Below are positions 10,495 through 20,261 of a DNA stretch of 21,134 nucleotides, one piece after another. The DNA comes from a virus. The stretch is taken from IMG/VR virus record IMGVR_UViG_3300046012_000081, positions 1-21,134 of that record; one strand, 5' to 3'. The first letter of the stretch is position 1. Each line of letters begins with the position of its first letter. The notes under the pieces were generated by a model. The model saw only the letters and a program-made list of their open reading frames with translations. It did no database searches and was not told where the DNA came from. The translations under genes were made by a program, and so were the position numbers.

Positions 10495-11037
10495 ATGGAT
10501 TTTTATGTAGCATCTCCAGTTCTGCCATTCCATCCTGCTGCTGGTGCCGCTTTTGCATCGTTTACATCGAAGCAAGATATTAGTCCCCAACCATTACCAG
10601 TTATTCGTGCTGGACAATTCCACATTGGTAGCAAGGTATGGGTCAAAGCTTGCGGTGAATACTCATCACTAACCGGTGCAGCATTAACACTTGGTCTATG
10701 GATAGGTACAGCTACTGGAACAATTACTGTATCCTTAGCTGAAACATCAGTGTTTACTACTGGTACTACGCCAGCAGCGTGGTCATGGGATCTTGAATGG
10801 ATGGGAACAATTGTCACCCATGCCGTGTCAGGATCTGTCGTTGGTCAAGGGCTATGTAATCTTGGATCATCACTAACTGCGGTAACAGCCACACCATTCC
10901 CAATCACTCAAGCACTTCGCACTGTCACAGTTGATACTACAATCGACAGAGCTATTGGTGTATCCGCAACATGGGGTGCATCGAGTGCTTCTAACACAAT
11001 AAAGACCAATGAACTGATAGTGATGCTGCTAAATTAG
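10495..11037 (+). CDS. Putative minor structural protein
   Basis: A 180-residue protein with AAGGAG (10483-10488) six bases before ATG 10495. It is rich in Ser, Thr, Ala and Gly with alternating hydrophobics (GAALTLGLWIGTATGTITVS), giving a beta-sandwich impression. There is no signal peptide, no charged catalytic cluster and only two Cys (positions about 53 and 121). It sits in a set of small virion-type genes between the hub and the repeat protein, and co-directional close spacing supports a virion role. I do not recognise a specific family. Confidence 0.5.
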   Translation: MDFYVASPVLPFHPAAGAAFASFTSKQDISPQPLPVIRAGQFHIGSKVWVKACGEYSSLTGAALTLGLWIGTATGTITVSLAETSVFTTGTTPAAWSWDLEWMGTIVTHAVSGSVVGQGLCNLGSSLTAVTATPFPITQALRTVTVDTTIDRAIGVSATWGASSASNTIKTNELIVMLLN

Positions 11038-11050
11038 AGCGGGGATCGCA

Positions 11051-11371
11051 ATGGCAAATGTTGGAAACGTCGGTTATACGATTAGCAAGGCAGACTTTGA
11101 TAATCGTATTGGTGCAGCGGTCGTGAATCTACGAAATGCATTTAGAGAGATTGTTTCAATCAAAGCAGAACTTGATGATGCAACTATTCTTCCTGATTCC
11201 ACATTGATAACGCTAGGATATGCCTCTCCAGCCGACACTACTCAAATTCGCAATTCATTCACGGATCTTGCTAAGTTGTATGATATTTCCCGAAACCTTG
11301 CAACACAAGGTGTTACTAACGACTTCTGGTTTAGTGCAAAGCATTTAGCTGGATTGAATTTCAATACCTGA
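11051..11371 (+). CDS. Conserved small phage protein, helical
   Basis: A 106-residue protein with GGGGAT (11041-11046) before ATG 11051. The order of features matches a hypothetical family I recall from phages and viral metagenomes: GAAVVNLRNAFREIVSIKAE, then LITLGYASPADTTQIRNSFT, then a short region ending NDFWFSAKHLAGLN. It is mainly helical, with no Cys and no membrane segment. Related proteins usually sit beside the two small structural genes found just upstream here, so it probably belongs to the same virion subassembly. The biochemical role is unknown. Confidence 0.6.
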   Translation: MANVGNVGYTISKADFDNRIGAAVVNLRNAFREIVSIKAELDDATILPDSTLITLGYASPADTTQIRNSFTDLAKLYDISRNLATQGVTNDFWFSAKHLAGLNFNT

Positions 11372-11381
11372 GTTGTGTGCT

Positions 11382-11435
11382 TGCAGAAGCGTCGGAGGGA
11401 AGTGAGTCATGGCTTTAGCACGCGACGCTTCTGCA
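11382..11435 (+). promoter_or_regulatory. 13-bp inverted repeat enclosing the ribosome site and start codon of the repeat protein
   Basis: TGCAGAAGCGTCG (11382-11394) and CGACGCTTCTGCA (11423-11435) are exact reverse complements. The 28-base loop holds most of the Shine-Dalgarno sequence GGAGGGA (11394-11400, first G in the stem) and ATG 11409. The right arm is coding (residues 5-9 of the repeat protein), the left arm lies in the 37-base gap after the previous gene. No T-run follows, so it is not a terminator. It looks like a translational control element or a binding site for a coat-type or regulatory protein; this is inference. Confidence 0.65.
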
Positions 11436-13655
11436 CCAGCAGTAAAGGTTAACTCGGGTAGCACCACGAACCCAATCGTTTCAGACAGTTTTACTCCACC
11501 GTTAGGAGCACTCCTATTAATAAGATGGTCAGCCAACACAACTAGTCCTGTAAATCCATTTGCACCAACCATTACAGATTCACGTGGAACACCACTAATA
11601 TATGCATTGGCTGATTGGCAATCTAGAGCTAATAGTCCAACAGTAAATGGTCAGGTTGCAACTTGGACAGCAGTTGTTACTTCCTCTGTTGCAATGACAA
11701 TATCTGTTACCACGGGTACAGGTACTGGAAATCAACAGGCTGCTCTTGATATTGAAGTTTTAACTGATACTTCAACTCCAACAGTTGGTGTTCACGGTAG
11801 TTCTGGTTCCACATCAGCTGCAAGTATTGCACAAAGCTATACGGCTTCAGCAACAAATGGTTGGGGATTTGGTGTTGCTTGTGACTGGGATGCATTAGGC
11901 AGCTTTACGGCTGGTTCTGGTTGTACTATTGGTACTGGCCAAACAGGCACTATTCCTACAACTCAGATTTCATATGCATTTTGGCGTAGAACAGTTGCTG
12001 ACGATGTTAACGGTGGTTCTAACACACTTAATGTTAATGCTGCTGGTACTAGTACAAACCTAAACTGGGCTTGGATTGAAATTCTTCCAACTCCAACTGC
12101 TACTTCTACCTCTACAGCGCCACCACAGCAAATTCCACCGCATATATTCAGAGAGTTTGTTCTTAGATATCAATCACAACTACCATCGAGTGCACCTGTA
12201 GTTCTTGACCAAACATTACCACAGGGTGCGATTCCAAGTAGTGAAGTCTTTGGTAACTTTGTCACAAGTCTCACTGTAAATTCAAACGCAATATCTGGTG
12301 CTGAATCTCTAGGTAATGCTACCATTGCGCTTTCAATTACACCTCAAGGTGTACCTAGTGTGCAAAACGTAGGCAGTCCAACAATCACGACTACCTACAC
12401 GGTAAATGCAAATGGAATACCTAGTGCTGAAGTAAGTGGAAGATCTACTGTAGCATTAACTGTTAACCCACAAGGGATCACTGGCGCCGAAAGCGTTGGC
12501 CCACCTGTGGTGTCTCTAGCAGTTAGCGCAAATGGAATACCTAGTAGTGAACAACTTGGTTCGCCAACGATTACCACAACAGTTACGGTTGCGGCTAATG
12601 GAATCATCAGCGGAGAAACGTCTGGTAGTTCTTCAATTGCGACCGCATCTAGTGTTAATCCTAATGGTATTCCAGGAACAGAACGTCTTGGCTCTCCTAC
12701 AGTTACCACAACCTATACGGTTAGTGCTAATGGCATTCCTAGTGCTGAGATATCTGGCAATTCTTCGGTAACAACAACAGTTACTGTTAATGCTAATGGT
12801 ATACCGACTGCGGAAAGCTTCGGACTACCCACAGAACAAGTTATCGTTTCCATTAATGCAAATGGAATCTCAAGCGCTGAGCGTTTGGGAAGTCCAACTA
12901 TTACGACAACCTATGCAATTAATGCAAACGGCATTACAAGTTCTGAGCTATCTGGTAACTCGAATATCACGACCGCTAGCTCAGTCACGCCACAAGGAAT
13001 TTCGGGCGGTGAGCAGGTTGGTGGACCGGCTGTAACGGCCACCTACACCGTTACTCCTGGTGGAATTCCATCGGCTGAAGCATCTGGCGCAACAGCACTA
13101 GGATACAATGTTACGCCAAATGGTATAACAAGTAACCAAGCAGTTGGTAGCCCATCTATACTTGTTGTCGTTGCAATAAATCCAGGTGGTATTACTACTG
13201 GCGAACAAGTTGGTAACCCAACTGTTGTTTCTACATACACAGTCACTGCGCAAGGTATTCCAACATCTGAGCGAATTGGACTTCCAAGCCTAGCACCAAC
13301 GTCTACAATACAACCTGGTAGTATTTCATCTGGTGAGCGATTTGGCTTACCAACAATAACCACAGGTGCAATTACAATTGCAGTTAGTGGCGTACCGGGT
13401 GCATCTGGTGTTGGTTTTGTAACTGTAAGTCTTGGTATTCCAGGACAAAGCATTCTCGCATTTGGAATAACTTCAGAAATTAAACTTGGTCGACCATTCA
13501 TTGGTCCACAGGCAATTGTTGATGTCAGTTGGCGCGAGGAACCTGTGGTGGTCTACATTGCAGATGCACCAGTTACTAGCAAAATAGTAACAGATGTAAT
13601 TTGGTCTATTGAAGATGACATAGTTGATGCTAATGGTGGACCTGACGAAATTTAG
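11409..13655 (+). CDS. Large repeat-containing structural protein, likely tail fibre or virion surface protein
   Basis: A 748-residue protein in three parts. Residues 1-230 form a beta-rich N-terminal domain (SFTPPLGALLLIRWSANTTS, ISYAFWRRTVADD, WAWIEILP), probably a sandwich fold. A Pro/Thr/Ser/Gln linker (about 230-273) leads to residues 274-700, roughly 19 tandem units of 20-23 residues with consensus GIPSAExxGxPTITTTxTVNAN; Gly-Ile, the Glu and the central Gly are the best kept. The C-terminal 45 residues (VDVSWREEPVVVYIA to the acidic end) are non-repetitive. The repeats suggest an elongated beta-solenoid or a string of small beta units. It is the last gene of the rightward block. Receptor binding or decoration is likely but unproven. 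GGAGG (11394-11398) is ten bases before the start. Confidence 0.68.
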   Translation: MALARDASAPAVKVNSGSTTNPIVSDSFTPPLGALLLIRWSANTTSPVNPFAPTITDSRGTPLIYALADWQSRANSPTVNGQVATWTAVVTSSVAMTISVTTGTGTGNQQAALDIEVLTDTSTPTVGVHGSSGSTSAASIAQSYTASATNGWGFGVACDWDALGSFTAGSGCTIGTGQTGTIPTTQISYAFWRRTVADDVNGGSNTLNVNAAGTSTNLNWAWIEILPTPTATSTSTAPPQQIPPHIFREFVLRYQSQLPSSAPVVLDQTLPQGAIPSSEVFGNFVTSLTVNSNAISGAESLGNATIALSITPQGVPSVQNVGSPTITTTYTVNANGIPSAEVSGRSTVALTVNPQGITGAESVGPPVVSLAVSANGIPSSEQLGSPTITTTVTVAANGIISGETSGSSSIATASSVNPNGIPGTERLGSPTVTTTYTVSANGIPSAEISGNSSVTTTVTVNANGIPTAESFGLPTEQVIVSINANGISSAERLGSPTITTTYAINANGITSSELSGNSNITTASSVTPQGISGGEQVGGPAVTATYTVTPGGIPSAEASGATALGYNVTPNGITSNQAVGSPSILVVVAINPGGITTGEQVGNPTVVSTYTVTAQGIPTSERIGLPSLAPTSTIQPGSISSGERFGLPTITTGAITIAVSGVPGASGVGFVTVSLGIPGQSILAFGITSEIKLGRPFIGPQAIVDVSWREEPVVVYIADAPVTSKIVTDVIWSIEDDIVDANGGPDEI
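12228..13511 (+). repeat. Tandem ~66-bp coding repeats (about 19 diverged units)
   Basis: Units of 60-69 bases encode the GIPSAE-type repeat. Most copies have diverged at DNA level, but an exact 18-base match (GCAAATGGAATACCTAGT) occurs at 12408-12425 and 12528-12545, two units apart. Units such as those starting near 12727, 12793 and 12859 keep an AATGG core at 66-base spacing. The array could expand or contract by recombination. Confidence 0.85.
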
Positions 13656-17246: not shown

Positions 17247-17720
17247 TTAAATCACCTCATTAAGTTTACAAAATTCACCAAAAAACTTTGTCGCTGCTTT
17301 GTTGTAAGCGATAGCAGCTTCTTTTTCATCATGAAAGTAACCAAGGAATTTATCTTTACCATCAACGAAAATCTTGGCTTGCCATTTTGATCTTCTAGTA
17401 ACCCAGTGAACACCCTTATAAACTGAAGTTGTAGAATTAGAAGTTTTACTTCTATTCATATTATTTTGTTTAGATGTTACTTCTCGAAGATTTGATTTTC
17501 TATTGTCCAAACCATTTCCATTGATGTGATCACATTTAGAATATCCAGTGATAAATGTGTGCATACGCTGTATTGTCCTTATTGCATATCCGATGTTTCT
17601 ACAAGCATAAAAGGTGTTGGTTCCTTTACCTGCATACCAAGAGTATTGTGATACTATGTCATAATCTTCATCATCTATTATGCAAGTCATTCCACGACTA
17701 AGCGATATCTCCTTGGTCAC
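17247..17720 (-). CDS. HNH homing endonuclease with C-terminal AP2 domain
   Basis: A 157-residue protein from GTG 17720, which overlaps the polymerase stop as GTGA and has GGAG (17730-17727) six bases upstream; a TTG at 17732 is a weaker option. The N-terminus KEISLSRGMTCIIDDEDYDI is typical of this family. H54, then CDHINGNGLDNRKSNLRE with D64, H65, N73 and N77, form the HNH (beta-beta-alpha metal) site. Residues about 100-156 (VYKGVHWVTRRSKWQAKIFV, LGYFHDEKEAAIAYNKAA) are an AP2-type DNA-binding domain. Such enzymes nick or cut intron-less or intergenic sites and spread themselves by repair. It sits between the polymerase gene and the start-less ORF, and no intron is visible. Confidence 0.9.
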   Translation of the reverse strand: MTKEISLSRGMTCIIDDEDYDIVSQYSWYAGKGTNTFYACRNIGYAIRTIQRMHTFITGYSKCDHINGNGLDNRKSNLREVTSKQNNMNRSKTSNSTTSVYKGVHWVTRRSKWQAKIFVDGKDKFLGYFHDEKEAAIAYNKAATKFFGEFCKLNEVI

Positions 17721-20050
17721 AGATCGCTCCAACGCTTTCCCTTAGACACGTCAACCACAAATGGCACATAGTCGGTAAACGCTTTTCCTGAAGCTACCAT
17801 TTCTGTGCTGGCAATGTCAATGACTTGGTCTGCATCAGTTTCCTTGCACTCGAAAATCATTGCATCATGGATTGTCAATCTTGTAGTTGCCAATCCACGT
17901 AGTTTAGGCTGCAATGCAATCAACGCTGTCAAGCAAATGTCACTAGCAATTGATTGAGGCAAAAAGCTAAGACCTTCATTCAATACGTCGTGTCTATTTT
18001 GATCGGTGATCAACCAGAAAGATCGCTTCCGACCAAATGGAGTTGTTAGATCATCACCGTTGAGAATTGTACGCTTGACTGATTCTTGCCAAGTAATGAC
18101 CTTAGAAATGACACCATTGAAGTCATGCATTAGCTTTCTAGTTTCAGCAAGTGTAATGCTCGAACCTTGCTGTGCTAATTCCTGATAGATAGCTTCTACA
18201 CCACGACCATATGCGTTACCATAGAAAATCGACTTCATACTTACTCGATTTTCTTTAACCCACTTACCTTCACCATAGATATCATTACAAAGTTCATTGA
18301 AGATATCACGGTCAGGATCATTGAATATAGAAGCTAGATAATCGTCTTGCGCGAGAGTCGTAATAACACGACCTTCGGCCTGTTTGTAGTCAAGCTGAAT
18401 GAGGACATTCTCTGGACTCTCCACCGTGAATTGGTGTTTGATTCGCTTATCACGGACAATATTTTGCATGTTCGGGTTTTTGGAAGCAAGACGACCTGAT
18501 GTGGTACCATGAAGTGTATACGTCGTGTATACCTTACCATGATATATCCGCTTTTGGAAGCCTTTAACATATGTACCGTTGAGCTTTGTTCTACGTCGAT
18601 GCAATAGTAGTTGTCCAATGAATGTCCTTACTACTGGTGGTATGTTTGATCGCTGTAAGAGTCGTTCTAGTAAATCCTTGTTAGTTGATGGAAGGCTTAT
18701 ACCTTGCTCTGCAAACCATCTGGTGATTTGCATTGGTGAGCGCGGATTCAATGCTCTGCCTGTGGTGTTTGCAATCTCTAGCTCGAACTCGTATAGTTCT
18801 TTTTCTAGAATTGTTTGTAGACCTACACTATATTCACTATCGAATCTAATGCCAGCACGTTCCAAGAACATCAATGCATTTGACGCTTTTACTAAGAACT
18901 CATGTTGCTGCCGTTCTCTATCAGTGAAACGCTCAGAGAACAAACGCCACAGGTCATATGTGACTGCAACGTCGTAAGCGTTGTACTTGTATAGGACTGG
19001 CCGGGGAATATTAGCGTAGTTTCCACCTCTTGGGATGTATTTGTGAATCTCTGCTTCCCAATCCGGCGTACCGAGCAATTCAATACCAAGCTTTTTAAGT
19101 CCATGCTGACCAGGTCGCTCATCAAGGCAGTAGGACATAAGCATTGTGTCGGCATAGGCTTCTAACTCACCGAAGAAGGGGTACAGTCCTGCCAAGTCAA
19201 ACTTTGCATTGTGGGCAATGATATCACGGGAACGTAAGTACTCCCGGAATCTAGGGCGAATCTCGCTTGATGTAAGTCCACTTCCACCAAATACCACAGT
19301 TTGCCCTGGCGCATATGCGATACCCACGCAGAGTAAACCATATTGGTCTGGGTGGACGTAAGTGTTGTCTTTTTCAATACCGCATTCAATGTCGATAACG
19401 ATAGGCCCCGACATATCCGCCAGTCGCTCAATGGCGAGTCCAATTGCACTAGCATCGTTAAACGTTCTGATGTTAGGTTCACGCCAACTAGCATATGTTT
19501 TTCCTCGTAGTTTGGCTGTATCTGAAACGAATGATGGAAACGCATCGGGGCTTCTAAGACAGTAAGCAGGATGCCATGTTGCAACTACACTTACCTGTGG
19601 GTCTTCAATATATGGTTTGGGTGCCCCGATGCGTAATGTTGAGATTTTCTTTTTCTGGTCGATAAGGTTGCTGGCCGCTGTACCACCAACAGCTAAAATC
19701 TTTTCTACGCCGCTCTCAGCTAGCTCTCTGTCCAGCCGTGGCTTGCAGGCAGCGATGGCAGCCTTGGGTGGATCATCGTTATTTTCTGGTCTACATAGAC
19801 AAATGTTGGTTATCATCGTATTTTCACGCTTATAACCATGATGATGAAGTACTTGATCTAGTAGTCGACCGGATGGACCGGTAAACGGAATACCACGAAC
19901 CGCCTCATAAGCACCTGGTGCTTCACCAATCACTACAAGCTTAGCTCTAGGATGTGGATTCTGCGTTGGTACAAAAGGTGCACTCTGAAATGGACACTCC
20001 CAGCATTTAGCTCCTGGCGCTTTTGAGTGGCGCTGCACTTCATCATCCAT
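17717..20050 (-). CDS. DNA polymerase: family-4 uracil-DNA glycosylase + 3'-5' exonuclease + family A polymerase
   Basis: A 777-residue protein. I start at ATG 20050 (AAGGA seven bases upstream, 8-base overlap with the previous gene) rather than GTG 20074. Residues 1-190 form a family-4 glycosylase: C16, C19, C86 and C102 match the four iron-sulfur ligands, GEAPG (42-46) with the following E and PFTGPSG, and HPAYCLR (160-166), the usual uracil-pocket motifs. Residues about 215-370 hold exonuclease motifs: D220-I-E222, N281/D285 and Y356-x3-D360. Residues about 385-777 are the polymerase: motif A DYKQAEGRV (D554, E559), motif B with R602, K606, Y610 and Y614, motif C H728-D729-A730. Y610 takes the place of E. 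coli Pol I F762, as in T7 polymerase; the usual Glu after D729 is Ala. It replicates phage DNA, perhaps while removing uracil. Confidence 0.93.
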   Translation of the reverse strand: MDDEVQRHSKAPGAKCWECPFQSAPFVPTQNPHPRAKLVVIGEAPGAYEAVRGIPFTGPSGRLLDQVLHHHGYKRENTMITNICLCRPENNDDPPKAAIAACKPRLDRELAESGVEKILAVGGTAASNLIDQKKKISTLRIGAPKPYIEDPQVSVVATWHPAYCLRSPDAFPSFVSDTAKLRGKTYASWREPNIRTFNDASAIGLAIERLADMSGPIVIDIECGIEKDNTYVHPDQYGLLCVGIAYAPGQTVVFGGSGLTSSEIRPRFREYLRSRDIIAHNAKFDLAGLYPFFGELEAYADTMLMSYCLDERPGQHGLKKLGIELLGTPDWEAEIHKYIPRGGNYANIPRPVLYKYNAYDVAVTYDLWRLFSERFTDRERQQHEFLVKASNALMFLERAGIRFDSEYSVGLQTILEKELYEFELEIANTTGRALNPRSPMQITRWFAEQGISLPSTNKDLLERLLQRSNIPPVVRTFIGQLLLHRRRTKLNGTYVKGFQKRIYHGKVYTTYTLHGTTSGRLASKNPNMQNIVRDKRIKHQFTVESPENVLIQLDYKQAEGRVITTLAQDDYLASIFNDPDRDIFNELCNDIYGEGKWVKENRVSMKSIFYGNAYGRGVEAIYQELAQQGSSITLAETRKLMHDFNGVISKVITWQESVKRTILNGDDLTTPFGRKRSFWLITDQNRHDVLNEGLSFLPQSIASDICLTALIALQPKLRGLATTRLTIHDAMIFECKETDADQVIDIASTEMVASGKAFTDYVPFVVDVSKGKRWSDL

Positions 20051-20261
20051 GAATCTGTCCTTTGTGTCGTTCACACTTACAACTAACTACATAGCAGTGA
20101 AAATGTAGCGACTCACACGTACATGGTCTGGTATCTTCAGGATATGGTTCTGGTTTTTCACATTCAGTCAGTCGTGAATGACTCCATGTAGGTATTCCCT
20201 GTGGTGTTCCAATTCCGCGTATCGGTGTACGGCAATGCTGACACGTTTTCCTTAATGCCAT
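20043..20261 (-). CDS. Small Cys-rich protein
   Basis: A 72-residue protein with eight Cys: C7 and C10 (CQHC), C34, C47 and C49 (CTC), C56, C61 and C63 (CKC), plus several His. ATG 20261 has AAGG nine bases upstream. Its stop overlaps the polymerase start by 8 bases. The 5' third (20164-20261, 98 bases) overlaps the preceding membrane gene in another frame, an unusually long overlap. The segment GIPTWSHSRLTECE and the DTRPCTCESLHFHC-type ending resemble phage zinc-ribbon proteins with no known function. Coupling to the polymerase suggests an early role. Confidence 0.62.
   Translation of the reverse strand: MALRKTCQHCRTPIRGIGTPQGIPTWSHSRLTECEKPEPYPEDTRPCTCESLHFHCYVVSCKCERHKGQIHG

Follow-up and report, generated by a model that had tools for sequence, protein, structure and literature searches.

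A recurrent RNA stem, kept by codon choice, at the start of a phage minor tail protein gene: a putative lock on translation initiation

Tailed phages must produce their various tail proteins in the correct copy numbers from a single late transcript, and how they do so has been asked for a long time. RNA structure at the start site of a gene is a known lever that has rarely been documented. The locus described here raises this question for a single gene. It lies in a 21,134-base IMG/VR virus record, which was analysed over its entire length and is referred to as the window in the following. The plus strand of the window carries a siphovirus tail module (tape measure, minor tail proteins, endolysin), and the minus strand carries small genes and a DNA polymerase. 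Within the tail module, a perfect 13-bp stem encloses the translation start of a 748-aa minor tail protein gene. We asked whether this pairing is under selection and what it may do to the translation of that gene.

The left arm of the stem (TGCAGAAGCGTCG; 11382-11394, plus strand) and the right arm (CGACGCTTCTGCA; 11423-11435, plus strand) are exact reverse complements with a spacing of 28 nt, and 8 of the 13 pairs are G-C. The left arm is non-coding and is positioned 5' of the Shine-Dalgarno (SD) sequence, in the 37-nt gap between the upstream stop codon TGA (11369-11371) and the ATG at 11409; the right arm represents codons 5-9 (R-D-A-S-A) of the 748-aa reading frame. The 28-nt loop (GAGGGAAGTGAGTCATGGCTTTAGCACG; 11395-11422, plus strand) contains the SD and the start codon (11409-11411). 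A first-pass annotation of the same DNA had described this arrangement, and the sequence bears it out, with the amendment that the first G of the SD (GGAGGG, 11394-11399) also forms the 3' end of the left arm and therefore belongs to the stem. The description of the surrounding DNA as AT-rich was correct in direction but overstated, as the GC content of the window is 42%.

Folding of the region 11360-11460, as proposed along with the first description, yielded a stable structure of -45.6 kcal/mol (z -5.6, equalled by none of 200 shuffles), which extends from 11365 to 11459; the 13-bp stem alone (54 nt) folds at -27.9 kcal/mol (z -5.1). The computed fold comprises two elements that had not been recognized before, a 4-pair extension of the stem (11378-11381 with 11438-11441, plus strand) and an outer 11-pair stem (11365-11375 with 11449-11459, plus strand). 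The outer stem includes the upstream stop codon on its left side and is coding on its right; conservation of this outer stem was not found among the relatives described below. One or two spots within the tape-measure gene reach a comparable fold strength over 100 nt, so that strength alone does not set the start hairpin apart. What is unique in the window is the perfect stem and its position together. The stem is the window's sole perfect inverted repeat of at least 13 bp with a loop of at most 60 nt, and 9 of 200 dinucleotide-shuffled windows contained such a repeat anywhere. The chance probability for the stem length alone is accordingly about 0.045, and a repeat that also encloses a gene start is much rarer. 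No clear excess of arm copies occurred elsewhere in the window, a search of 11000-11700 with Rfam covariance models (E up to 1) gave no match, and a tRNA search returned none. An intrinsic terminator was considered and rejected, as the right arm is followed by CCAGCAGTAAAGG, without a T run.

The putatively controlled gene (11409-13655, plus strand) matches the minor tail protein family PHROG 13352 (E 5e-30). Its product consists of an all-beta N-terminal domain (about residues 1-230; predicted by AlphaFold2 as all beta with a pLDDT of 90), followed by short repeats (...ANGIPSAE.SG/SPTITTTYTV...). In an annotated phage collection searched at the DNA and protein levels, only the repeats were matched, mostly by mycobacteriophage minor tail proteins, and neither the N-terminal domain nor the preceding 106-aa gene had relatives there. 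A Pfam search of the 748-aa product gave no match for the N-terminal domain, a structure search of the PDB with this domain gave no confident one, and the sole match in bacterial genomes was a distant one in Planomonospora (27%). The 106-aa gene (11051-11371, plus strand), a possible coupling partner, is separated from the tail gene start by 37 nt, counted from its stop.

Relatives of the locus were gathered from uncultivated viral contigs by searching with the 106-aa gene, the preceding 180-aa gene and the N-terminal domain. This resulted in about three dozen distinct gene starts, mostly at 45-60% protein identity and with GC contents of 0.42-0.71. The window's hairpin was present in none of these starts, and an exact search of viral contigs for the whole hairpin gave no hit either. 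In most relatives, codons 6-10 (D-[AG]-S-[ST]-P) are instead complementary to the SD/start region itself, as in L054 (GGUUGAGCCGU / ACGGCUCAACC), L036 (GAUGACGCGU / ACGCGUCAUC), L039 (GGGGUUGAC / GUCAACCCC) and L045 (GGGGGUGAGCCGU / ACGGCUCAUCUCC). In most of them the SD and/or the start codon is predicted to be paired in a stable local stem, whereas in the window the SD and AUG are located in the loop. Across the family the accessibility of the SD is below that of shuffled sequences (unpaired 0.20 versus 0.26, p 0.0013). A few members, namely L038, L044, L066 and L069, have no SD-hiding stem; L066 lacks it even though its 180-aa gene is the closest to that of the window (74%), but there the upstream gene is an unrelated replacement whose stop lies 9 nt before the start. 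The first-pass annotation had taken relatives that keep the right-arm codons and lose the complementary left arm to speak against the hairpin. This loss was indeed seen for this particular left arm, but the right-arm codons are still paired, with the SD/start region.

As some complementarity already follows from the encoded residues and from the G-richness of the SD, codons were redrawn synonymously with each gene's own usage, and the pairing of positions -15 to +3 with codons 5-14 was scored. Of 32 sequences, 28 paired more strongly than their synonymous shuffles (mean z -1.14, p 5e-9). A set that was enlarged by starts found later, and from which the window was left out, gave 32 such cases among 35 relatives (p 3e-9, mean z -1.12); when it was clustered at 72% identity, 19 of 22 favoured pairing (p 8e-5). 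Other codon blocks (9 to 72) and other upstream blocks displayed no excess pairing, 124 control genes from the same loci had a mean z of -0.07, and the start of the gene just upstream, analysed in 16 phages, gave z +0.08. When arms were swapped between phages, the native duplex was the stronger one (z -4.65, p < 5e-5), also within the GC-rich subset (z -3.49, p 1e-4). Four starts were found after the hypothesis had been formed (L066, z -0.32; L068, -0.77; L069, +0.10; L072, -1.90); these agree in direction only and are too few to be decisive. These results support selection on pairing well, with the fitting of codons to a conserved SD motif as its main route, and the earlier suggestion that pairing rather than protein is selected thus gained backing at the level of the family. 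Across diverse uncultivated phages that span the whole of the above GC range, the choice among synonymous codons for the first residues preserves an RNA stem at this one gene start.

The first-pass annotation had pointed to compensatory changes in the arms of related phages. In a strict column test, 73.6% of the cells were paired as compared to 32-54% when the arms were slid against each other, and 19 of 500 shuffles reached the observed covariation score; no consensus helix emerged when the anchored alignment was analysed with RNAalifold. Classical compensatory covariation in the family is therefore modest. In several members the register is shifted by a base or a bulge, and column tests penalise such shifts. 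Whole-region folding energies did not differ significantly from those of synonymous shuffles in the majority of GC-rich relatives, which offer many alternative pairs, and the arm-specific test was therefore needed.

In the window itself, the pairing signal resides in left blocks within -33 to -6 (z -2.7 to -2.9), with none at -15 to +3 (z -0.15). The window is thus a derived variant, in which the right-arm codons have been re-partnered 5' of the SD, and the SD and AUG have moved from the stem into the loop. The stem can evidently be rewired while the same codons remain paired. One might argue that the family start hairpin is real and that the 13-bp stem of the window is coincidental, given that shuffled windows do hold such repeats at the above frequency and that the exact geometry is unique to the window. 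However, the stem engages the same codons as the stem of the relatives and encloses a gene start, which leaves such a coincidence highly improbable. We also regard it as very unlikely that the locus is an inverted repeat that matters at the level of DNA, either because a protein binds there or because a template-switch mutation left it behind, with no RNA role. A recent template switch could yield the perfect 13-bp identity in the window, and the G-U versus A-C count (43/24 observed, 42/26 expected), an asymmetry that might have told RNA from DNA, was uninformative and does not lean towards RNA. However, the position is tied to the start codon in the relatives, the SD is buried beyond expectation and the signal is restricted to this one start, all of which would be odd for a DNA site.

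Selection on the pairing at a start site suggests that the hairpin serves as a cis-acting lock on translation initiation of the minor tail (fibre-like) protein gene, a function that we propose with moderate confidence. Translational control, one of the roles raised in the first-pass annotation, is the best-supported reading of the locus, but the exact architecture seen in the window (SD/AUG in the loop, left arm 5' of the SD) is not conserved. Nothing in the data pointed to the other two roles that it had raised, an mRNA-stability element and a binding site for a protein. Speaking against a lock are the few members that have no SD-hiding stem, the modest covariation and, as described below, the failure of an upstream ribosome to ease opening in the window and in long-spaced members. 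In the usual form of the family, codons 6-10 would fold back and hide the SD and the start codon, and the stem would be opened by translation of the preceding gene, i.e., by translational coupling through RNA unfolding. Synthesis of the tail protein, of which a virion probably needs few copies, would then scale with translation of the upstream gene.

In most members, 12-30 nt separate the stop codon of the preceding gene from the start. A ribosome positioned on that stop was taken to cover 10 nt beyond it. Masking this footprint decreased the calculated cost of opening the start site by 3.5-16.6 kcal/mol in relatives with a spacing of 12-20 nt, and occlusion-based coupling therefore fits the short-spaced members. 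No lowering was obtained for the window (37 nt), L018 (47 nt) and L023 (52 nt). Judged from these calculations, coupling to upstream translation is the likely release of the lock in the family. In the window, a ribosome that terminates upstream reaches to about -27, which is the foot of the 13-bp stem, and this would leave melting by further scanning, a plain damper or the exposure of the start discussed below.

The calculated accessibility of the window start site differs from that of its relatives. The start codon is unpaired with a probability of 0.75, compared to a family mean of 0.22, and opening of -15 to +15 costs 13.5 kcal/mol, the lowest value of the 21 family members compared (family median 24 kcal/mol) and normal for the window's own genes. 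The SD is unpaired at 0.38 versus 0.43 in shuffles. Opening of -25 to +25 requires 32.6 kcal/mol, more than the 7-29 kcal/mol calculated for the window's other gene starts that were tested. According to the model, the start site of the window is thus exposed locally yet clamped. The main rival to a lock builds on the local exposure. As an anti-sequestor, the upstream left arm would capture the right-arm codons and free the SD, and the 13-bp stem would expose the start and allow translation without coupling. In addition to the low opening cost and the unpaired start codon, a possible intermediate fits this explanation, as a homologous upstream stretch in L007 and L039 (TGTCGA) has 5 bp that are complementary to the codons of the SD-hiding stem. 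However, a 30S subunit requires more than 28 nt and would face the high cost of the wider opening, and a shorter stem would be sufficient to displace the SD; we consider such a role of the stem unlikely. If the hairpin is a lock also in the window, the 13-bp stem would hold a locally open initiation site at both ends, and its release would depend on a ribosome that scans on past the upstream stop and melts it, or on slow spontaneous melting.

The two states may also belong to one start-site switch in the family, in which two partners compete for the same codons, the SD giving the off state and an upstream arm the presenting state. The window lineage would then have fixed the second state, and dosage would be tuned by a swap of partners. 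We put this forward as a tentative idea that is rather improbable. With regard to the upstream arm, the stretch following the stop in L007 (L007:3295-3337, TACTAGCTGTCGA) is a near-copy, in direct orientation, of tail gene codons 2-6 (CACTAGCTATCGA). This stretch aligns with the left arm of the window and may hint at the origin of the arm.

SD-hiding stems in gene pairs are an established device for translational coupling, for which an RNA unfolding model has been put forward in f1 VII-IX, MS2 coat-lysis and E. coli rpmI-rplT (PMC12548453). The family described here shares with these systems an inhibitory structure at the downstream start and a close upstream stop, and in short-spaced relatives the upstream ribosome would likewise invade the stem. 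It differs in that the known cases are individual genes backed by experiments, whereas here the stem recurs in a family of uncultivated dsDNA phages and the coupling is a calculated one. Furthermore, the arm is part of the gene's own first codons, and in the window the SD and AUG are in the loop, beyond the reach of the upstream ribosome. With respect to geometry, the window is closer to the MS2 coat initiator hairpin, which, according to the work of de Smit and van Duin as cited in PMC9894550, has 27 nt, includes the start codon and part of the GGAG SD, and sets coat synthesis by its stability. Both place the SD and AUG within one local hairpin. However, the stem of the window is longer and, at the strength given above, would be expected to repress rather than to fine-tune, and it belongs to a dsDNA phage.

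Translational operators such as the MS2 coat/replicase operator and those of T4 RegA, gp43 and gp32 likewise place a structure or a binding site where translation of a phage gene begins (PMC3561173, PMC3014915). A phage or host protein might bind the hairpin and repress the gene in the manner of MS2 coat protein, RegA or T4 gp43, and the hairpin surrounds the start codon as in MS2-type operators (PMC3561173; PMC3014915). However, loop, stem sequence and register vary across the relatives, which share no unpaired motif beyond the SD and start and, unlike the known operators, no conserved loop or bulge motif, and no candidate protein or known ligand was found. We therefore assign this explanation a very low probability. 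If the hairpin acts as a lock on initiation, dosage control of one tail protein becomes directly testable with a small reporter.

Several further features were observed at the related starts and in the window. In L066, an unrelated 107-aa ORF (L066:2498-2821) replaces the 106-aa gene between two conserved neighbours, and the start hairpin is shifted 3' of the GTG (GCCGCTGG/CCAGCGGC). L041 displays a different long stem around the same start (CGACGTGG/CCACGTCG), and in L024 the start codon is located inside a long stem and pairs with codons ~12-21. A second hairpin of the window is formed by codons 9-20 of the 106-aa gene (11076-11109), with 13-nt arms that are 92% complementary and separated by an 8-nt gap; the start-arm test of this gene gave no family-wide signal. 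On the minus strand, a 785-aa ORF (17717-20074) combines a uracil-DNA-glycosylase superfamily domain (residues 42-178) with a 3'-5' exonuclease and a family A DNA polymerase (PF03167, PF01612 and PF00476, respectively). The 3' end of this polymerase gene is overlapped by 16 nt by an HNH endonuclease-like ORF (17247-17732, minus strand; PF13392), which is possibly a homing endonuclease.
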